Source: Dasania marina DSM 21967 (GTDB lineage: Bacteria > Pseudomonadota > Gammaproteobacteria > Pseudomonadales > Dasaniaceae). Taken from it: a DNA stretch of 64,000 nt. Location: positions 807,631-871,630 of the forward strand of contig NZ_KB891575.1 in assembly GCF_000373485.1 (NCBI RefSeq), given 5' to 3'. The notes beneath the pieces were generated by a model. The model made no database searches. It was not told the DNA's origin and saw nothing but the letters and a program-made list of their open reading frames with translations. Made by a program: the position numbers and the translations under genes. Below are positions 6,162 to 15,442 of the stretch, piece by piece; positions within the stretch are counted from its first letter, which is position 1; every line of letters begins with the position of its first letter.

Positions 6162-7541
6162 ATGCAACAGTGGGTCTGTATTGTTTGTGGCTGGATTTAT
6201 GACGAAAAAGTGGGCGACCCTGATTCAGGCATAGCGCCGGGTACCAAGTTTGAAGATATACCCGATGATTGGTTGTGCCCAGACTGCGGCGTGGGCAAAG
6301 ACGATTTTGAGTTGATAGCGGTTAGCGAACCCGAGCCAGAAGTGCCGCATCACGAAGAAAACCCGGCTACCGACCACGTGCTTGCGCCAGTGATAATTTT
6401 AGGTACAGGCATGGCTGGCTATGGCGTAGCCAAAGAATTCCGCAAGCATGATAGTGAAACGCCTCTAATTTTGATCAGCTCTGACGATGGCCGTGCCTAC
6501 TCCAAGCCCATGCTGTCTACCGGCTATACCCGCAATACCGAGGCGGCCGACTTAGTCGCCGCTGATGCCGGCACTATGGCTAGGCAACTGCGCGCCAGTG
6601 TCTGGACTATGACGAAAGTGCATAGTATAGACACCGCGCAACAACTTATACACATAGGCGATGGCCATAGCCAGGTGCACTACGGCAAGCTGGTGTTGGC
6701 CTTGGGTGCCGATACCATTATGCCGCCGGTACAGGGCGATGCTTTGGATCACGTGTATTCTATTAATGACTTATTAGACTTTGATGACTTCCGCAAAGCG
6801 GTTAAGAAAACCCAGGCCAAAAAGATCGTCTTAATCGGCGGTGGCTTAATAGGTTGTGAATTTGCCAATGACTTAATCAATGGCGGCTTTACCGTAGAAG
6901 TAGTAGATCCTTTGGCTTACTGCCTACCCACCTTACTGCCCGAGGCAGCGGGTAAAGCGGTGCAGCGTGCACTGGAAGCCAAGGGTGCCGTGTTCCACTT
7001 CGGCGACCTAGTCAGCGCGGTGAATAATAACACCGCTGGCGGCGTAACCGTTACTTGCCAAAGTGGCCAAGAGTTACAGGCCGACCTCGTGATTAGCGCT
7101 GTAGGCGTGCGCCCCCGCACCGGGCTGGCCGCGGCTGCCGGTTTAACGGTAAACCGTGGCATAGTGACCGATCGCAAACTGCAAACCTCGGCGGCTCATG
7201 TTTATGCCCTAGGGGATTGCGCGGAAGTGGATGGCCGCAGCTTGGTGTATGTGGCACCGCTGAACGCCGCGGCGAAAGCCTTGGGGCAAACCTTAGCGGG
7301 TAGCCCCAGCGATGTCATTTACCCCGCCATGCCAGTGATGGTGAAAACCCCGGCCTGCCCAGTGGCCCTTAGCCCTGCGCCATTAGGCGCTGAAGGCAGC
7401 TGGCAGATACAGCAAAACGGTAATGATACCGTGGCAGAGTTTCGCAATGCCGCCGGTCAATTACTGGGTTTTGCTTTGACAGGCGAGGGTACAAAAGAGA
7501 AGATGCGTTTACAAAAGGAGCTGCCCCCCATTTTGGCTTAA
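6162..7541 (+). CDS. Rubredoxin fused to NAD(P)H rubredoxin reductase
   Basis: A 459-residue fusion. Residues 1-50 are a complete rubredoxin with the iron site Cys6, Cys9, Cys39 and Cys42. After a short acidic linker, residues from about 77 form a pyridine nucleotide-disulfide type flavoprotein: FAD motif [17 protein letters not shown] motif [14 protein letters not shown] and the second FAD motif [12 protein letters not shown]. In Pseudomonas these are separate rubA and rubB (AlkG/AlkT) products that pass electrons from NADH to alkane hydroxylase or to oxygen-detoxifying enzymes. No alkane hydroxylase gene is in the window. AAGG precedes the ATG. The ubiC/ubiA and HU neighbours match the Pseudomonas rub locus. 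Confidence 0.93.
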
Positions 7542-8353: not shown

Positions 8354-10417
8354 GTGACGAAGCATATTATCATTGCCTTAGCCCTGTTAAACGCAGCGAG
8401 TACCGCAGCAATAGCCGCTAACCCGGCAGCGTCTTATTATGACGAGAGCGATTTATTAGTGGATATACCCGTGGTCAGCGCGGGTGCACGTATGGCGCAG
8501 GCGCGGCATTATTCACCGTCTTCCGTTACGGTAATCGACAGCGAAACCATCGCCGCATTAGCCCCTAACGGTTTAGCTGAGGTGTTTCGTTTAGTGCCCG
8601 GCTTTATGAGTTTTTATATCAATGCCTCTATGCCGGGCTTGTCTGGCCACGATTTAACCGATGATGACCCCCGCCGTTTAGAGGTGCGTATTAATGGCCG
8701 CAGCGTCTATGTACCAACCTTCCCCACGGTGTCTTGGAATTCCTTAGGTATAGTACCTGACGATATAGAACGGATAGAGGTGGTGCGCGGCTCCAATGTG
8801 CCGGCCTATGGTTCAAATGCGGTGGTGGGTGCAGTCAGTATCACCACCAAAAGTCCTGTAGAAGAAAGCGGTACCCATATACGCACTACCGTGGGTGAAA
8901 GAAATACCCGCAATATCAATATACGCAGCAACTTCGAAATGACTAACGGTTATGGTCAATGGCGCTTTGCCCATAGCGAAAACTCTGGTTTTGATGTGCT
9001 AGATGACAGCACGGCGGTAGACCATGTCGTGTTTGACTCTACTTTTACCCCCAGCTTATTAGATACCTATACGTTGGAGCTGGGAGTGAGCGAAGGGCGC
9101 TTTGGTATAGGCGATGGCGATTATGTAGACGAATTTGCTGACGATAAAAATACCAGTTATTGGCTGGCCTTGGGTTGGTTACGAGATGAGGGCCAGCAAA
9201 AATGGCGAGGTCATTTTTCATACTACGATAGTCACTCTGAACATCATGTACCGCAGTGGTTATCGGTAGAAGAGGAGTGGAGCCCCGAACAACTCAATCG
9301 GTATCTGGCGGGTAAGCCCGATGTGCTTCTCGATTATGGTTGGGGTTTAAGAGACTCGCAGTTGTGGGAAGCTGAACTGGAATATCAATACGATGTTAGC
9401 AAACAGCTGCGGGTACTCACAGGTGTGGGCTATAAATTTCAAAATATAGAAGCGCCCAGCAATCTCGATCACGGCGGCACTATTGATTACGGTATTTTAT
9501 ACGGCTTCTCCAATATAGAGTGGCAGATCAGCCGCAAGTGGCTAGCCAATATAGGCTTTATGGCAGAAAACCAAGAGACCGATGAGTCTCATTTGTCACC
9601 GCGGGCATCGCTACACTATCAATTGCTGCCTCAGCATAACTTTCGGGTAAGTGCCTCTAAAGCGTATAGATCACCCTCGGTATTTGAATCTAACCGAGAA
9701 GTCGTTCAGCGAGCCTATGACGTTTTTGTCGATTACGATCTTCTGTCCGAAGACAAGCTAGACGCTGAAGAAATAGAGACGCTTGAGTTGGCCTACTACG
9801 GTAGTTTTTTTGATGGCAAGCTGGATATAGACTGGCGCGCTTTCCATGAAGAGATGGAAGGCGGTATAGATCACGTTAAGTGGTGGGTAGATCACCAGGG
9901 CTGGGATGCCAGTGCTGATTATGATGAAGGCGACCCTAGCGACCCTGATAACAGAGCGCACTTTTTTAGCAATAGCAAAAACTGGCGCGTGACCGGCTAC
10001 GATATGCAGGTAAAGTGGCGGCCCACTAACAGCACTTTGGTGTCACTACAGTATGCTAATGTGCGAGTATCGTTTACCCGGGTAAAAGATTGGACACAGC
10101 TACCCCATGGCGAGAAAAGAGATAAACAGCGAGTACCCGAGCATACCGCCAGCCTGCTCATCACCCAAGATTTTGGTGGCGGCTGGAGTGCATCGATAAT
10201 GAGTTATCATCAATCAGATGTGGAGTGGCGCGGTGGTGAATTTGCCGAGTCATTTTATCGACACGATGTGGCCTTAAGCAAAGTGATAGCCTTTAATCAA
10301 ACCCAGCTTAGGCTGGATTTAAAAGTTGAGAATATAACGGATGAAACCAACTTTGAGTTTGAGACCTTAAATTATTTTGAACGCGCGGCATATCTCAATG
10401 CTTCACTACAATGGTAG
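8354..10417 (+). CDS. TonB-dependent outer-membrane receptor (signalling locus)
   Basis: Outer-membrane receptor of 687 residues. It has a signal peptide (about 1-21, ending AIA), a plug domain (about 50-165, with the IERIEVVRGSNVPAYGSNAVVGAVSITTK-type block, whose VVRG and YGSNA elements are diagnostic), and a beta barrel ending LNASLQW with the usual terminal aromatic residue. It starts at GTG with GAGG six bases upstream. An 85-base gap separates it from a response regulator, a periplasmic binding protein and a hybrid kinase on the same strand. The ligand is unknown; the neighbours suggest that its import or presence is sensed in the periplasm. It lacks an obvious N-terminal FecA-type signalling domain. 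Confidence 0.9.
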   Translation: MTKHIIIALALLNAASTAAIAANPAASYYDESDLLVDIPVVSAGARMAQARHYSPSSVTVIDSETIAALAPNGLAEVFRLVPGFMSFYINASMPGLSGHDLTDDDPRRLEVRINGRSVYVPTFPTVSWNSLGIVPDDIERIEVVRGSNVPAYGSNAVVGAVSITTKSPVEESGTHIRTTVGERNTRNINIRSNFEMTNGYGQWRFAHSENSGFDVLDDSTAVDHVVFDSTFTPSLLDTYTLELGVSEGRFGIGDGDYVDEFADDKNTSYWLALGWLRDEGQQKWRGHFSYYDSHSEHHVPQWLSVEEEWSPEQLNRYLAGKPDVLLDYGWGLRDSQLWEAELEYQYDVSKQLRVLTGVGYKFQNIEAPSNLDHGGTIDYGILYGFSNIEWQISRKWLANIGFMAENQETDESHLSPRASLHYQLLPQHNFRVSASKAYRSPSVFESNREVVQRAYDVFVDYDLLSEDKLDAEEIETLELAYYGSFFDGKLDIDWRAFHEEMEGGIDHVKWWVDHQGWDASADYDEGDPSDPDNRAHFFSNSKNWRVTGYDMQVKWRPTNSTLVSLQYANVRVSFTRVKDWTQLPHGEKRDKQRVPEHTASLLITQDFGGGWSASIMSYHQSDVEWRGGEFAESFYRHDVALSKVIAFNQTQLRLDLKVENITDETNFEFETLNYFERAAYLNASLQW

Positions 10418-10502
10418 CGCTTAGCTAATGAAGGATCTTATCTAGCGGCGCTTAGCCATAGCGGCAGTCTCAGCGAAAATAGATGTTGAAGAAGGATTTT
10501 AA

Positions 10503-11129
10503 ATGAAAATAGTGATAGCTGATGATCATGCGATAACCCGTACCGGTGTTATCGCCGCCCTATCGGAGATGTTCCCCAACGCCCATATCATAGAGTGCTG
10601 TAATGCCGGCTCGGTATTAACCGCGGCTAAAGAGCAGCCCCTAGATCTCGCTATACTGGATTTATTTATGCCTGGCAGCGATGGTTTTGGTTTCTTAAAA
10701 AAACTGTGTAAGACCTATCCAGAATTACCGGTAGTGGTGTTATCGGCATCCGATAACCCTAAGCATGTACACAAGGCATTAGACTTAGGGGTAAGTGGTT
10801 TTATACACAAAAGCAGCAGCTTTGCTTCTATGCACGATGCCCTTAAACAGGTATTGGCGGGAGGCACGGTGACGCCCGAGTTAGCCTTAGCCGCCGATGA
10901 CGAGAGCCCGCAACACCGGGATGCGTTGTTAGCTAGCTTAACCACTAGGCAGCTGGAAATACTCGCTTGTTTGGCTCAGGGCATGAGTAATAAAGCGATA
11001 GCGGCCAGTTTATTTATTTCTGAAAATACCGTTAAAACCCATTTAAAATCGATTATGGCTGAGTTGGATTGCGGCAACCGTACGGAAGCGGTAGTGCTAG
11101 CGGAAAAGCTGAGCTTATTACCTTCCTGA
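10503..11129 (+). CDS. NarL/LuxR-type response regulator
   Basis: Transcription factor of 208 residues. The receiver domain (1-120) has the acidic pocket Asp8/Asp9, the phospho-acceptor Asp53 in LDLFMPG and a Lys in the IHKSSS segment. The LuxR-type helix-turn-helix (about 142-205) has the LTTRQLEILACLAQGMSNKAIA and SENTVKTHLKSI elements. AGGA sits well before the ATG. Its stop overlaps the next start as TGATG, so it is translationally linked to the binding-protein gene. It is the likely end point of the phosphorelay from the hybrid kinase two genes on. Confidence 0.93.
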   Translation: MKIVIADDHAITRTGVIAALSEMFPNAHIIECCNAGSVLTAAKEQPLDLAILDLFMPGSDGFGFLKKLCKTYPELPVVVLSASDNPKHVHKALDLGVSGFIHKSSSFASMHDALKQVLAGGTVTPELALAADDESPQHRDALLASLTTRQLEILACLAQGMSNKAIAASLFISENTVKTHLKSIMAELDCGNRTEAVVLAEKLSLLPS

Positions 11130-12145
11130 TGCGCTTGTTTGCCATAGGGTATAGTTTGCATCGCGTTACTGGGGTTGTGCGTTGGCTGTTAACCATAGGC
11201 TGCGTAGTAGGCCTGTGTTACAGCCCGGTGGGCCTAGCTAGTGCACAAATTATTGTTATCAACTCCTCTGATGCCCCGCCTTATCAGCGCACTGCCGCCG
11301 CCTTAGCAAAGCATTTGGCCGCCAGCGGGGTGTTGGCTAAGCACGAGCTGCAGATATTGTCTTTGGCACAAGCGGACACTCTCGCAGCGCTAGAACCCGG
11401 CACTGTTATTGTGACATTAGGGTCCGCTGCTGCTGATTATGCAATACAGCAGCTACCGGGTGTGCCGGTCATTAATAGTTTTATTACTCACAGTGCTTAC
11501 CAAGCCCTACATGCCCCCGCGCTGCCGGATCAAGCGATTACCGCTGTCTTTATGGATCAACCGCTGGCGCGTTTGATACAACTGGCCAGCTTATTAAAAC
11601 AAGATCAACAGCCCTATAAAATTGGCCTGCTCAGCCAAGCCGACGTGGTCGATCAACAATTAGTGACCGCGGCCTCGGTGAGTGATATAGAAATTCATAG
11701 CGCGACATTATTACTCAAGCAAAATCCAATAAAGCAAATAGAACCGCTAATGAAACATAGCGATGTGGTTATTGTTAGGCCCAGTACCAGTTTGTTTAAC
11801 CGCCTAGTGGCAAAATTAGTATTGCAGCTCAGCATGCGCTACCAAACACCGGTGATCGGTTTTTCAGAAAAATATACCAGAGCCGGCGCATTATTATCGC
11901 TGTATGCCAGCCCCGACAATATAGGCCAAGATACGGCCCAGCTAATTAGTGAGTGGCTAGAGGCGTCACCGTTAGATGCCCCACCGTTAAATAGACCGCC
12001 AAAAAGGCTACCGCCTGCGCGTTATGGCGGGCATTTTAGCCTAGCGATTAATGCGCGCATTGCTAAAAAAATGTCTATGGCCGTAGATGCGCAACAACTG
12101 AGCACAGCATTGCAGCGCCAGGAGGCAAAGAATGTTGGCGATTAA
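11129..12145 (+). CDS. ABC-type substrate-binding-like protein (PF04392 type), probable periplasmic sensor partner
   Basis: Predicted 338-residue exported protein with a hydrophobic N-terminus (about 15-38, ending GLASA). The body resembles PF04392 ABC substrate-binding proteins: two alpha/beta lobes with GTVIVTLGSAAADYAIQ and the PVIGFSEKYTRAGALLSLYASP block near the C-terminus. No ABC permease or ATPase accompanies it. The ATG at 11129 overlaps the regulator stop, and its own end overlaps the kinase start by 14 bases. This tight coupling suggests it presents a ligand to the sensor kinase rather than to a transporter. An upstream in-frame start at 11069 lies inside the regulator and is unlikely. 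Confidence 0.75.
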   Translation: MRLFAIGYSLHRVTGVVRWLLTIGCVVGLCYSPVGLASAQIIVINSSDAPPYQRTAAALAKHLAASGVLAKHELQILSLAQADTLAALEPGTVIVTLGSAAADYAIQQLPGVPVINSFITHSAYQALHAPALPDQAITAVFMDQPLARLIQLASLLKQDQQPYKIGLLSQADVVDQQLVTAASVSDIEIHSATLLLKQNPIKQIEPLMKHSDVVIVRPSTSLFNRLVAKLVLQLSMRYQTPVIGFSEKYTRAGALLSLYASPDNIGQDTAQLISEWLEASPLDAPPLNRPPKRLPPARYGGHFSLAINARIAKKMSMAVDAQQLSTALQRQEAKNVGD

Positions 12146-14831
12146 AAAATTATTCGCCTTTAGCCAGTGGAGCCTTAGCGCTAGAGTGTCGGCGCTGGTT
12201 GCCATACCGCTGGTTTGTATTAGTTTACTAACGGCTTACAATATTAATACCACGTTGAATAGAGAAACCGATAACCTCCAAGATAGAGCTGAAAAATTAT
12301 TATTCCTAGCTGCCGATGCCGCGCAACTAGCGTTGTTTGCCGGCGATAGAGACGCGTTAAATACCTTGGCTGATGCCATTATGCGTGACTCACAAATTGC
12401 CGAGGTTTTATTTTTTGATGACACCCTGCAACAACTCAGTGGTCAGGGCGCTAGCGTTAGCGGTGTTATCAACAGTAGTGCGTTTGTCGACGGTCAACAC
12501 ACGATAGCGGGTGATTATTGGGTATTTATACAATCGGTAAAACCCAGCGGAGCCTTTATTGATGACGATCCAGAGCAATATAGCGCAGCTATTAGCAATC
12601 AGTTGTTGGGCTGGGTCGCGTTAACGGTAGACCTCAGTGAAAGTCGCGATTATCGGCAGGCGGTATTAAAAAATAATGTATTGATTGCTCTATTAATGCT
12701 CAGTGTCGCGTTGTGGTTAGCGTTTCGCTTTAGTCGCTCAGTGGTGCGGCCTATCAACGAAATTACCGCGGCGGTGGCCCGCTACGGGCAAGAAGATTTC
12801 AGCCACCGCGTTGCTGAGTTGAGCGTAGGCGAGCTGGGTGAATTGGAGAAAGGGGTGAACAAACTGGCGCAACGGGTGGGCCAGTCGCAGTTGATATTAA
12901 GAGCAGAAGTGGCCAAGGCCACCAAAGACTTGGAGAGTCAAAATTTAGATTTAGCGGAGGCTAAAATCGTAGCTGATGAGGCCAACCATGCCAAAGATGA
13001 TTTCCTCGCAAGAATGAGCCATGAGTTACGCACGCCATTAACCGGTATTATGGGTTTTGTGCGTCTGTTGGCTAACACCGAACAGCCTACGCTGCGGCAA
13101 GAGTATAGCCAAATTATTTTAACCTCTTCCTCGGTATTGCTATCAACCATCAATGACATACTGGATTTTTCTAAACTACGGGCTCGCTCTTTTGTGTTAA
13201 GCCCTACGGCCTTTAACCTAGAAGAGTGTTTGCGCTCTGCGCTGGACTTACATCGAGTTTCGGCTTTTGAAAAAGCCATAGAGCTAAACCTGTTAATGGA
13301 TGCTGATGTGCCCTTAGCGATAGTGGCTGATGTCGATAAGCTACAGAAAGTGCTAAACAATATACTGTCGAATGCCGTGAAGTTTACCGACAGTGGCGAC
13401 ATTATTATGTTTGTTTCTCTATCACAGCAGCAGGGCGATGATGCGTTGATTAGTGTGGCTATTAAAGACAGCGGCATAGGCATTGCGGCCAGTGATTTAC
13501 AGCGGCTCTTTAATCCTTTTTTTCAATGCGATGAAAGCAGTACCCGCAGCCACGATGGTACCGGTTTAGGGCTGTCTATAGCCGAAGACTTTGTCAGCTT
13601 AATGGGCGGCGACATTAGTATCGACAGTGAAGAAGGTGAGGGCACAGAGGTTGAATTTAGTTTTCGCTGCCGCGTACAAGCGCAAGCTCTAGAGCCTTAT
13701 GCGGCGAATGAACAATGGCGGGCTGTGTTATTTGACCACAACCCCTGGACCCGGCGCTCATGGCGCAACCAATTACTGAGTTATAGCAGCGATGTGCGGG
13801 TAGCGACCAGCCCCGCGCAGTTAATCGATAATTTACAGGCCAAGCCTGCAACGGATGTGCTATTGCTAGGGCTGAATCAGCAATGTGATAGCAAGGAACA
13901 GCTGTGCGCTTTGTTGCAGCGCATAAGGGCCGGCTTTAATGGCGCGATTATTGTAGCGGCGGCCGACGATGGCAATCACGAATTACGGGCACTTAATGAG
14001 CATTATGGTCCCTTGCAGGTGGTCAGCAAGCCACTAACGGCTAGCCGTTTATGGGCCGTCTTGGATAAAGCCAATAGCCTGTCGGCGCCAGCGTTTATGC
14101 GCAGCGGTGGGCCTATAACAACAGTGCGGGATAAAGTATTAAGCAGCCCCCGGCTGTTGCCGGGGGTGAAGTTACTCTTAGCCGAAGACAATAAGTTTAA
14201 TCAGCAACTACTGGCAACGCTGTTGCGTGCAGTGGGGGCAGAGGTGAGCGTGGTCAGCGATGGCCAAGAGGCGCTGCTATGTTGTGAAATGCAGCGCTTT
14301 GATGTGTTATTGCTGGATTTACACATGCCTAAACGCAATGGCCTGCAAGTGAGCGAGGCGGTGCGTAAGGGGCAAATGAACAGCGATAGCCCGATTATTA
14401 TTTTGACGGCCGACCTACAAGCTGAGCAACAGCCGGCGATGGCGGCTGCGGGTGTCAATACGGTGAGTTATAAACCCATAGACGAACAGGATTTAATCGC
14501 AAAAATTCATCGCTTGGCCGCTAAAGGCAATAGCCAGGCAGACCCCACGGAACGTGCGCTGGTAAGGCTATCGGCCAATGAGCTAGAGCAGGAGCTCGAC
14601 CGTTTGCTACAGGGGATAGCCAAGGCTATTAGCGCCCAAGATATAAACGTTATACAACAACAGGTGCATCAGCTGCTGGGGGTCATAGGGCTGTCGGGTA
14701 TCACGGCGCTGCAAGCCGCCGCCGGGGCATTGAGTGAGGCTGCGTTAGCGAGTAATTTGACGGCCGTTATAGGGCACTTCGAAAAACTGTCAGCGGATTA
14801 CGCCGCCGCCTTAATGCAAACAGAAAAATAA
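12132..14831 (+). CDS. Tripartite hybrid sensor histidine kinase (BarA-like)
   Basis: Inner-membrane kinase of 899 residues. It has transmembrane segments near 18-36 and 182-198, which flank a periplasmic domain of CHASE8-like appearance. HAMP (about 199-252) follows, then HisKA with phospho-acceptor His297 in MSHELRTPL and an ATPase domain with DSGIGI and GTGLGL motifs. A degenerate receiver (about 528-647) has Gly580 where the Asp is expected. A full receiver (about 679-795) has Asp729 and Lys781. An Hpt-like domain (about 810-895) has His846. The expected relay is His297 to Asp729 to His846 to Asp53 of the upstream regulator. The gene start overlaps the binding-protein gene. Confidence 0.93.
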   Translation: MLAIKKLFAFSQWSLSARVSALVAIPLVCISLLTAYNINTTLNRETDNLQDRAEKLLFLAADAAQLALFAGDRDALNTLADAIMRDSQIAEVLFFDDTLQQLSGQGASVSGVINSSAFVDGQHTIAGDYWVFIQSVKPSGAFIDDDPEQYSAAISNQLLGWVALTVDLSESRDYRQAVLKNNVLIALLMLSVALWLAFRFSRSVVRPINEITAAVARYGQEDFSHRVAELSVGELGELEKGVNKLAQRVGQSQLILRAEVAKATKDLESQNLDLAEAKIVADEANHAKDDFLARMSHELRTPLTGIMGFVRLLANTEQPTLRQEYSQIILTSSSVLLSTINDILDFSKLRARSFVLSPTAFNLEECLRSALDLHRVSAFEKAIELNLLMDADVPLAIVADVDKLQKVLNNILSNAVKFTDSGDIIMFVSLSQQQGDDALISVAIKDSGIGIAASDLQRLFNPFFQCDESSTRSHDGTGLGLSIAEDFVSLMGGDISIDSEEGEGTEVEFSFRCRVQAQALEPYAANEQWRAVLFDHNPWTRRSWRNQLLSYSSDVRVATSPAQLIDNLQAKPATDVLLLGLNQQCDSKEQLCALLQRIRAGFNGAIIVAAADDGNHELRALNEHYGPLQVVSKPLTASRLWAVLDKANSLSAPAFMRSGGPITTVRDKVLSSPRLLPGVKLLLAEDNKFNQQLLATLLRAVGAEVSVVSDGQEALLCCEMQRFDVLLLDLHMPKRNGLQVSEAVRKGQMNSDSPIIILTADLQAEQQPAMAAAGVNTVSYKPIDEQDLIAKIHRLAAKGNSQADPTERALVRLSANELEQELDRLLQGIAKAISAQDINVIQQQVHQLLGVIGLSGITALQAAAGALSEAALASNLTAVIGHFEKLSADYAAALMQTEK

Positions 14832-15049: not shown

Positions 15050-15442
15050 ATGTTGGTATCTAAAAATATTTTGCCTATACAAGAGTACTCGCTACCCTTT
15101 GGTAACTTCCAGTTTTTTACAGATTATGTAAGCTGCGATATTTTCGAAGGGGAAGACCTGGATACGGAAAAACTACTGCAGTTTTACGCGTTGTGCAGTG
15201 ATTTTTTTCAAGACCAGCGCTATGCGGTTATAGAGCTTAGGCACTCTTCTTACTCGACAGACCCCAGTTTTTATATCAAATATAGTGATTTGTTATCGCA
15301 GGTGAAAGCGCAGGCGATGGTAGTTGCTAACACCGTGCTGGCGCAAATCAATGAATATGAGGCCATGTGTATACGGCATTGCCCCTGTCGCGCCTTTCAT
15401 ACAGTCGGGGATGCTATAGATTGGGCCAAGCAGCAAGCCTAA
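15050..15442 (+). CDS. SpoIIAA/STAS-like hypothetical protein
   Basis: Uncharacterised 130-residue cytosolic protein. The pattern of an RYAVIELRH strand, a VVANTVLAQINEYEA helix and a C-terminal VGDAIDWAKQQ segment resembles SpoIIAA-like/STAS proteins found widely in proteobacteria, but the match is by eye. No signal peptide or membrane segment. The ribosome site is weak. It may be independent of the kinase operon, which ends 218 bases upstream. Function unknown. Confidence 0.6.
   Translation: MLVSKNILPIQEYSLPFGNFQFFTDYVSCDIFEGEDLDTEKLLQFYALCSDFFQDQRYAVIELRHSSYSTDPSFYIKYSDLLSQVKAQAMVVANTVLAQINEYEAMCIRHCPCRAFHTVGDAIDWAKQQA

Follow-up and report, generated by a model that had tools for sequence, protein, structure and literature searches.

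A TonB-dependent receptor, a PF04392-like binding protein and a BarA/GacS-superfamily kinase as a probable signalling module in Dasania marina

Four genes on one strand in a 64,000-nucleotide stretch of Dasania marina DNA (the window) raise the question of whether an outer-membrane receptor, a response regulator, a periplasmic binding protein and a hybrid kinase form one signalling system, and how such a system would relate to kinases already known. An earlier note, made from the letters alone, had described their order, shared strand and coordinates, all of which agree with the open reading frame list; the two gene overlaps that it reported are present in the sequence.

8354-10417, + strand: TonB-dependent receptor (TBDR); GTG start, 687 aa, Pfam Plug and barrel
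10503-11129, + strand: LuxR/NarL-type response regulator; 208 aa, Asp53, Pfam Response_reg and GerE
11127-11131, + strand: TGATG stop/start overlap of the regulator and binding-protein genes (TGA 11127-11129, ATG 11129-11131)
11129-12145, + strand: PF04392-like periplasmic binding protein (SBP); ATG at 11129, 338 aa
12132-12145, + strand: 14-base overlap of the SBP and kinase genes, from the open reading frame coordinates
12132-14831, + strand: unorthodox hybrid kinase of the BarA/GacS superfamily; 899 aa
12231-12677, + strand: periplasmic sensor segment of the kinase (residues ~34-182), a fold match and the putative docking site of the SBP

The locus and its products

The kinase has the Pfam domains HAMP, HisKA, HATPase_c, Response_reg and Hpt, as in BarA and GacS, laid out as two membrane helices (residues ~15-33 and ~183-201), HAMP (200-249), HisKA with His297, a receiver with Asp729 and an Hpt domain with His846. 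These three phospho-acceptors and Asp53 of the regulator had been named correctly in the earlier note; the motifs around them are SHELRTP (His297), LLDLHMP (Asp729), VHQLLG (His846) and ILDLFMP (Asp53). A Cache/PAS-like periplasmic sensor of ~150 residues lies between the two membrane helices, and residues ~535-645 resemble, by eye, an extra receiver that lacks the phospho-acceptor Asp, a putative pseudo-receiver. The 14-base overlap of the SBP and kinase genes compares with a 4-base overlap common among relatives.

The LuxR regulator scores 66 bits against the UvrY/GacA model (cut-off 280) and so is not a UvrY/GacA orthologue; the models nearest to it are of the ErdR/NarL type. No match to UvrY/GacA was found in the Dasania marina genome at E 1e-25, while CsrA is present in three copies. 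The local regulator is likely to be the output of the window kinase. Promoter and terminator scans of the locus gave no more than chance.

Plug and barrel domains identify the first gene product as a TBDR; a domain search found no N-terminal signalling (STN) domain in it, and a TonB-box-like stretch (DIPVVSAGAR) can be seen by eye close to the mature N-terminus. Sensing of alkanes by way of TOL_0244/OmpS was considered and rejected. In Thalassolituus TOL_0244 rises sevenfold with n-C28 alkane (PMC6304351), but the window TBDR is no more than distantly related to this alkane-induced family (NF053590, 104 bits, cut-off 645) and not a member, and a true member (868 bits) is found elsewhere in the genome, outside the window at G000:C2:69684-71474. 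The link is weakened further by the rubredoxin reductase upstream, which does not belong to the module in other genera; in the window it is fused to rubredoxin (6162-7541, + strand) and is followed directly by the HU gene, after which comes the module. On the other side, a gene for a 130-aa protein with no Pfam or NCBIfam match (15050-15442, + strand) is conserved directly after the module, both in Dasania and in metagenome-assembled genomes (MAGs; L036/L076), and genes of similar size are found in L077 and L078.

Conservation of the receptor, binding protein and kinase

A first search for relatives with a degenerate pattern failed, there being too few conserved stretches. Loci were then fetched by similarity to the SBP alone, and because the SBP was the sole query, the genes beside it are independent evidence. 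The SBP was matched in 63 of 195 genomes sampled at the level of the order, and in nearly all of the mapped loci from this sample TBDR-, SBP- and kinase-type genes occur together, with no other recurrent neighbour. The same trio is present in 29 named genome contigs from Dasania, Porticoccus, Neptunomonas and other Gammaproteobacteria, a set that also includes two Hydrogenophilaceae and one beta-proteobacterium MAG; a same-genus relative, Dasania sp., has the same locus. Class-level genomes gave an SBP match in 66 of 276, again with the trio, which is also seen in a few genomes from another class.

A tree was built from 148 non-redundant SBP loci. The branch that includes the window has 109 rows: 93 have a TBDR and a kinase beside the SBP on the same strand, 11 a kinase only, four a TBDR only and one neither, several of the missing partners being due to contig ends. 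The gene order, which the earlier note expected to be conserved outside this genome, is thus conserved as a set of three genes whose arrangement varies (RR-SBP-HK-TBDR, TBDR-SBP-HK and TBDR-RR-SBP-HK were all seen, RR being the regulator and HK the kinase). The unit is not the four-gene set proposed there; the LuxR regulator adjoins the module in a minority of loci, about one in six, while the TBDR adjoins the SBP or kinase in nearly all relatives. Two variants deserve mention: in one module the kinase gene is preceded by two SBP genes in tandem (L067, 9227-11104, - strand), and three modules have two tandem TBDR genes (L051, L054 and L055).

Recurrence of the trio in dozens of distant genomes exceeds chance. 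That these genes are co-transcribed neighbours with no joint function is scarcely credible, since the same trio lies at several unrelated chromosomal sites in distant genomes (beside fabAB, mnmE/mnmG, cysM/rlmD and HU/rubredoxin reductase).

A further alternative is import with feedback, in which the SBP, an importer's or a scavenging protein, would pass its ligand on to a transporter of the inner membrane encoded elsewhere, and the kinase would sense free ligand and regulate only the receptor. A TBDR and a binding protein are typical parts of an import system, and of the distance correlations calculated with the kinase core removed, that of TBDR and SBP is the tightest (0.57, compared with 0.39 for SBP and sensor and 0.42 for TBDR and sensor). 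None of 1000 permutations gave correlations as high; with the sensor removed, SBP and kinase core are still correlated at 0.32, and such correlations speak of joint inheritance only, not of contact. Against import, however, the mapped module loci showed no ABC permease or ATPase, and the window SBP, which lacks one beside it as the earlier note had observed, does not qualify as an ABC-importer component. Module SBPs also branch apart from ABC-linked ones: PF04392 proteins without a TBDR or kinase cluster outside the window's branch, and the one examined among them (L148) has BPD_transp_2 and ABC_tran beside it, so that the binding protein groups with the kinase and not with ABC transporters, as had been supposed. 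SBP-kinase pairs without a TBDR exist as well, and overall import with feedback appears unlikely. Separately, the pairs in L141-L146, which lack a TBDR and lie outside the main SBP branch, may be a second coupled system.

Ligand, sensor and proposed mechanism

The window SBP scores 20.2 bits against PF04392 (ABC_sub_bind), below the gathering cut-off of 25.9, while all 22 of the 22 aligned module SBPs match this family at E 0.01 (best 4.5e-18). Its N-terminus resembles a signal peptide and its predicted model has a two-lobed binding-protein fold (pLDDT 89.5), for which the best solved matches are CD0873, VC_1101, SP1069 and VIA (Z 19-22). Structures of the first three hold Tyr, Phe and Trp (PMC6816091). 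The window SBP shares the fold of these PF04392 aromatic amino-acid binders; unlike it, CD0873 and SP1069 are part of uptake systems. In a profile alignment, their two specificity positions (Glu263/Ala246/Ala268 and Tyr279/Tyr262/Gln284; PMC6816091) are Ser246 and Pro262 in the window SBP, the former invariant and the latter nearly invariant among aligned module SBPs. A Glu common to the aromatic binders is variable in module SBPs and the DPV stretch is replaced. A free aromatic amino acid was therefore rejected as the ligand, the fold agreeing and the pocket positions not, and the SBP likely has a ligand different from those of the same-fold proteins.

Apparent SBP fusions (620- and 699-aa open frames in two GC-rich genomes) proved to be merely open upstream frames. 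PF04392-type domains joined via a membrane helix to GGDEF are encoded in the Dasania marina genome (L009, 799-2403, - strand, and L074, 9346-11058, + strand), and the PF04392 domain would appear to act as a built-in sensor there too.

Structure comparison of the predicted fold of the kinase sensor gave similarity to LapD-type, WalK and CitA sensors. The LapD and WalK sensor domains are known to be regulated by a protein partner. This likeness, together with the replaced pocket positions of the amino-acid binders (PMC6816091), would suit an SBP that reports the state of the receptor or outer membrane with no small ligand involved; however, the two-lobed fold is kept, with Ser246 invariant at a ligand-specificity position, and such an envelope sensor is considered quite improbable.

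The reading that we consider probable is that the locus is an SBP-coupled signalling module of the BarA/GacS kinase superfamily, in which the TBDR admits a ligand and the SBP reports it to the kinase sensor. The TBDR would take up, or at least admit, a compound across the outer membrane, and the PF04392-like protein would bind it in the periplasm. The SBP, loaded or empty, would then contact the Cache/PAS-like sensor of the kinase, comparable to LuxP-LuxQ and TorT-TorS, and a phosphorelay would run from His297 to Asp729, His846 and Asp53 of the regulator, which probably controls its own locus and others. The gene order and its conservation, the domains and phospho-sites, the predicted SBP fold, the separation from ABC-linked binding proteins and the kinship of the kinase are observed here; the order of the phosphorelay and the binding-protein fold follow from known families, and we infer the physical contact, ligand uptake by the TBDR, direction of signalling, ligand and target genes. 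Some modules have no TBDR or have it in another order, which counts against this mechanism, and the TBDR could have a separate import task. The SBP is not indispensable to the kinase family, because E. coli is not among the control genomes that match PF04392 and barA has no such neighbour.

Like the module, LuxP-LuxQ and TorT-TorS combine a periplasmic binding protein and a hybrid kinase whose relay runs via a receiver and Hpt, but their binding-protein families, sensors and regulator types are different and no TBDR is involved; the tor locus sequence was inspected for this comparison. In PfeA-PfeRS and the Bacteroides SusC/D systems with hybrid kinases, a TBDR is coupled to a two-component system, but there is no separate PF04392 binding protein and the kinases are different.

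Kinship with GacS, BarA and PA1611

When kinases of Pseudomonas are searched with a profile of the module sensor (A6), two are far ahead (143-158 bits; the next kinase scores 53), consistent with a homologous Cache-type sensor: a 929-964-aa kinase, which also has the top BarA score and is GacS, and the PA1611 type. A profile of the module kinase gave 548 bits for E. coli BarA over sensor and core and 613-625 bits for GacS. Pfam sCache_4 matches BarA, GacS, a kinase at the gacS site and a PA1611 orthologue; the window kinase was not matched at E 0.001. A profile search of the Dasania marina genome for a second kinase with the module sensor returned a weak match alone (66.7 bits).

In a careful kinase tree of 37 rows, GacS, BarA and the kinase of one TBDR-SBP locus (L241) group together at 95/97 within the SBP-linked kinases, and a grouping of SBP-linked kinases without GacS and BarA is rejected (AU test, p-AU 0.006). 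An 80-row tree gave the same nesting with p-AU 0.20, the free search there being below its optimum. The nesting of GacS and BarA among SBP-linked kinases is therefore best regarded as well supported, not proven. The window kinase falls elsewhere, on a well-supported branch with other long-form kinases of its order (SH-aLRT 98 in the 80-row tree, 100/99 in the 37-row tree).

Chromosomal position is independent evidence of this kinship. In E. coli relA-rlmD is divergent from barA, and in Pseudomonas cysM is divergent from gacS; in L243, L245, L251 and L254 the TBDR-SBP-kinase trio lies exactly at this site, divergent from cysM-rlmD. Partial matches to the site are found in L247, L249, L250 and L258; in all, the trio is beside cysM and/or rlmD in seven or eight gammaproteobacterial loci other than the window (gene names were confirmed for L245, L254 and L223, the remainder being assigned by sequence clustering). 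No SBP or TBDR was found beside barA in the E. coli neighbourhood or gacS in those of Pseudomonas.

GacS and BarA (PRK11107, NF008318) thus resemble the window kinase in their unorthodox architecture and homologous sensor and differ in having no SBP or TBDR neighbour, while the window kinase is not at the gacS site, its flanks lacking cysM/rlmD, and has no UvrY/GacA partner, so that it does not qualify as a BarA/GacS orthologue. With 431.8 bits against NF008318 (cut-off 890), it is also not a BarA equivalog.

How GacS would sense without a binding protein is suggested by P. aeruginosa, where alanine at His97, His124 or His133 impairs function (PMC5595915). Three GacS proteins, close relatives of each other, have His, His or Arg, and His at these positions; the window kinase has Gly, Val and Gly, and BarA and the SBP-linked kinases mostly carry other residues there. 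The pattern fits direct sensing by GacS and SBP-mediated sensing elsewhere. For import with feedback it cuts both ways: a putative pocket in stand-alone GacS (PMC5595915) shows how a kinase might sense free ligand, but the histidine set is mostly absent from the SBP-linked kinases.

The Pseudomonas form of the module is short. In several genomes of one family a TBDR, an SBP and a ~637-aa kinase ending in a receiver are followed by fabA and fabB, and this receiver matches PDB 7c1j at E 6e-63. We take PA1613 of P. aeruginosa to be a TBDR. The 7c1j structure is the PA1611 receiver (PMC7467158), PA1612 and PA1611 are known to form an operon that precedes fabAB (PMC3462791), and a study of proteins for iron acquisition makes mention of PA1613 (PMC9864456). 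Judged by its receiver and by synteny with fabAB, rather than by comparison with the PAO1 genes themselves, the short form appears to be the PA1613-PA1612-PA1611-fabAB locus. It shares with the module the TBDR-SBP-kinase order, an SBP in the same branch and the same sensor profile (150 bits, G130); unlike the window kinase, PA1611 is short, with no Hpt and no adjacent regulator, and fabA-fabB follow it. PA1611 is a hybrid kinase known in P. aeruginosa to act on RetS/GacS and HptB, and relieves the inhibition of GacS by RetS (PMC7695008). In the papers found, PA1612-PA1611 figures solely as an operon with fabAB (PMC3462791), and no report of the signal of PA1611 was found in the literature searched.

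A tentative extension, which we rate somewhat short of an even chance, is that the ancestral kinase of GacS, BarA and PA1611 was SBP-coupled and fed by its own TBDR. Stand-alone GacS and BarA would have lost the pair, GacS would sense through a histidine pocket, and PA1612 and PA1613 would be the missing input of PA1611, possibly acting on GacS in trans.

The module is genuine and widespread, and it connects a TBDR and a PF04392-like SBP with the kinase superfamily to which GacS, BarA and PA1611 belong. A literature search that took in few subscription papers returned no paper connecting receptors or binding proteins of this kind with these kinases, and the connection of receptor and binding protein to this kinase family seems to be new. 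The description of the locus as an undescribed system holds to that extent, while the kinase superfamily and the PA1611 locus were already known. GacS and BarA are master switches; for GacS, the literature calls the ligand unknown and finding it an open challenge (PMC7695008). Should the signal of such kinases pass, or once have passed, through a soluble SBP that has its own receptor, a small stable protein could serve as bait for the ligand in place of the membrane-bound kinase. PA1612 and PA1613, nearly unstudied, would then become candidates for a part in the change between motile and biofilm lifestyles, and the module makes the question of the GacS/PA1611 signal testable.
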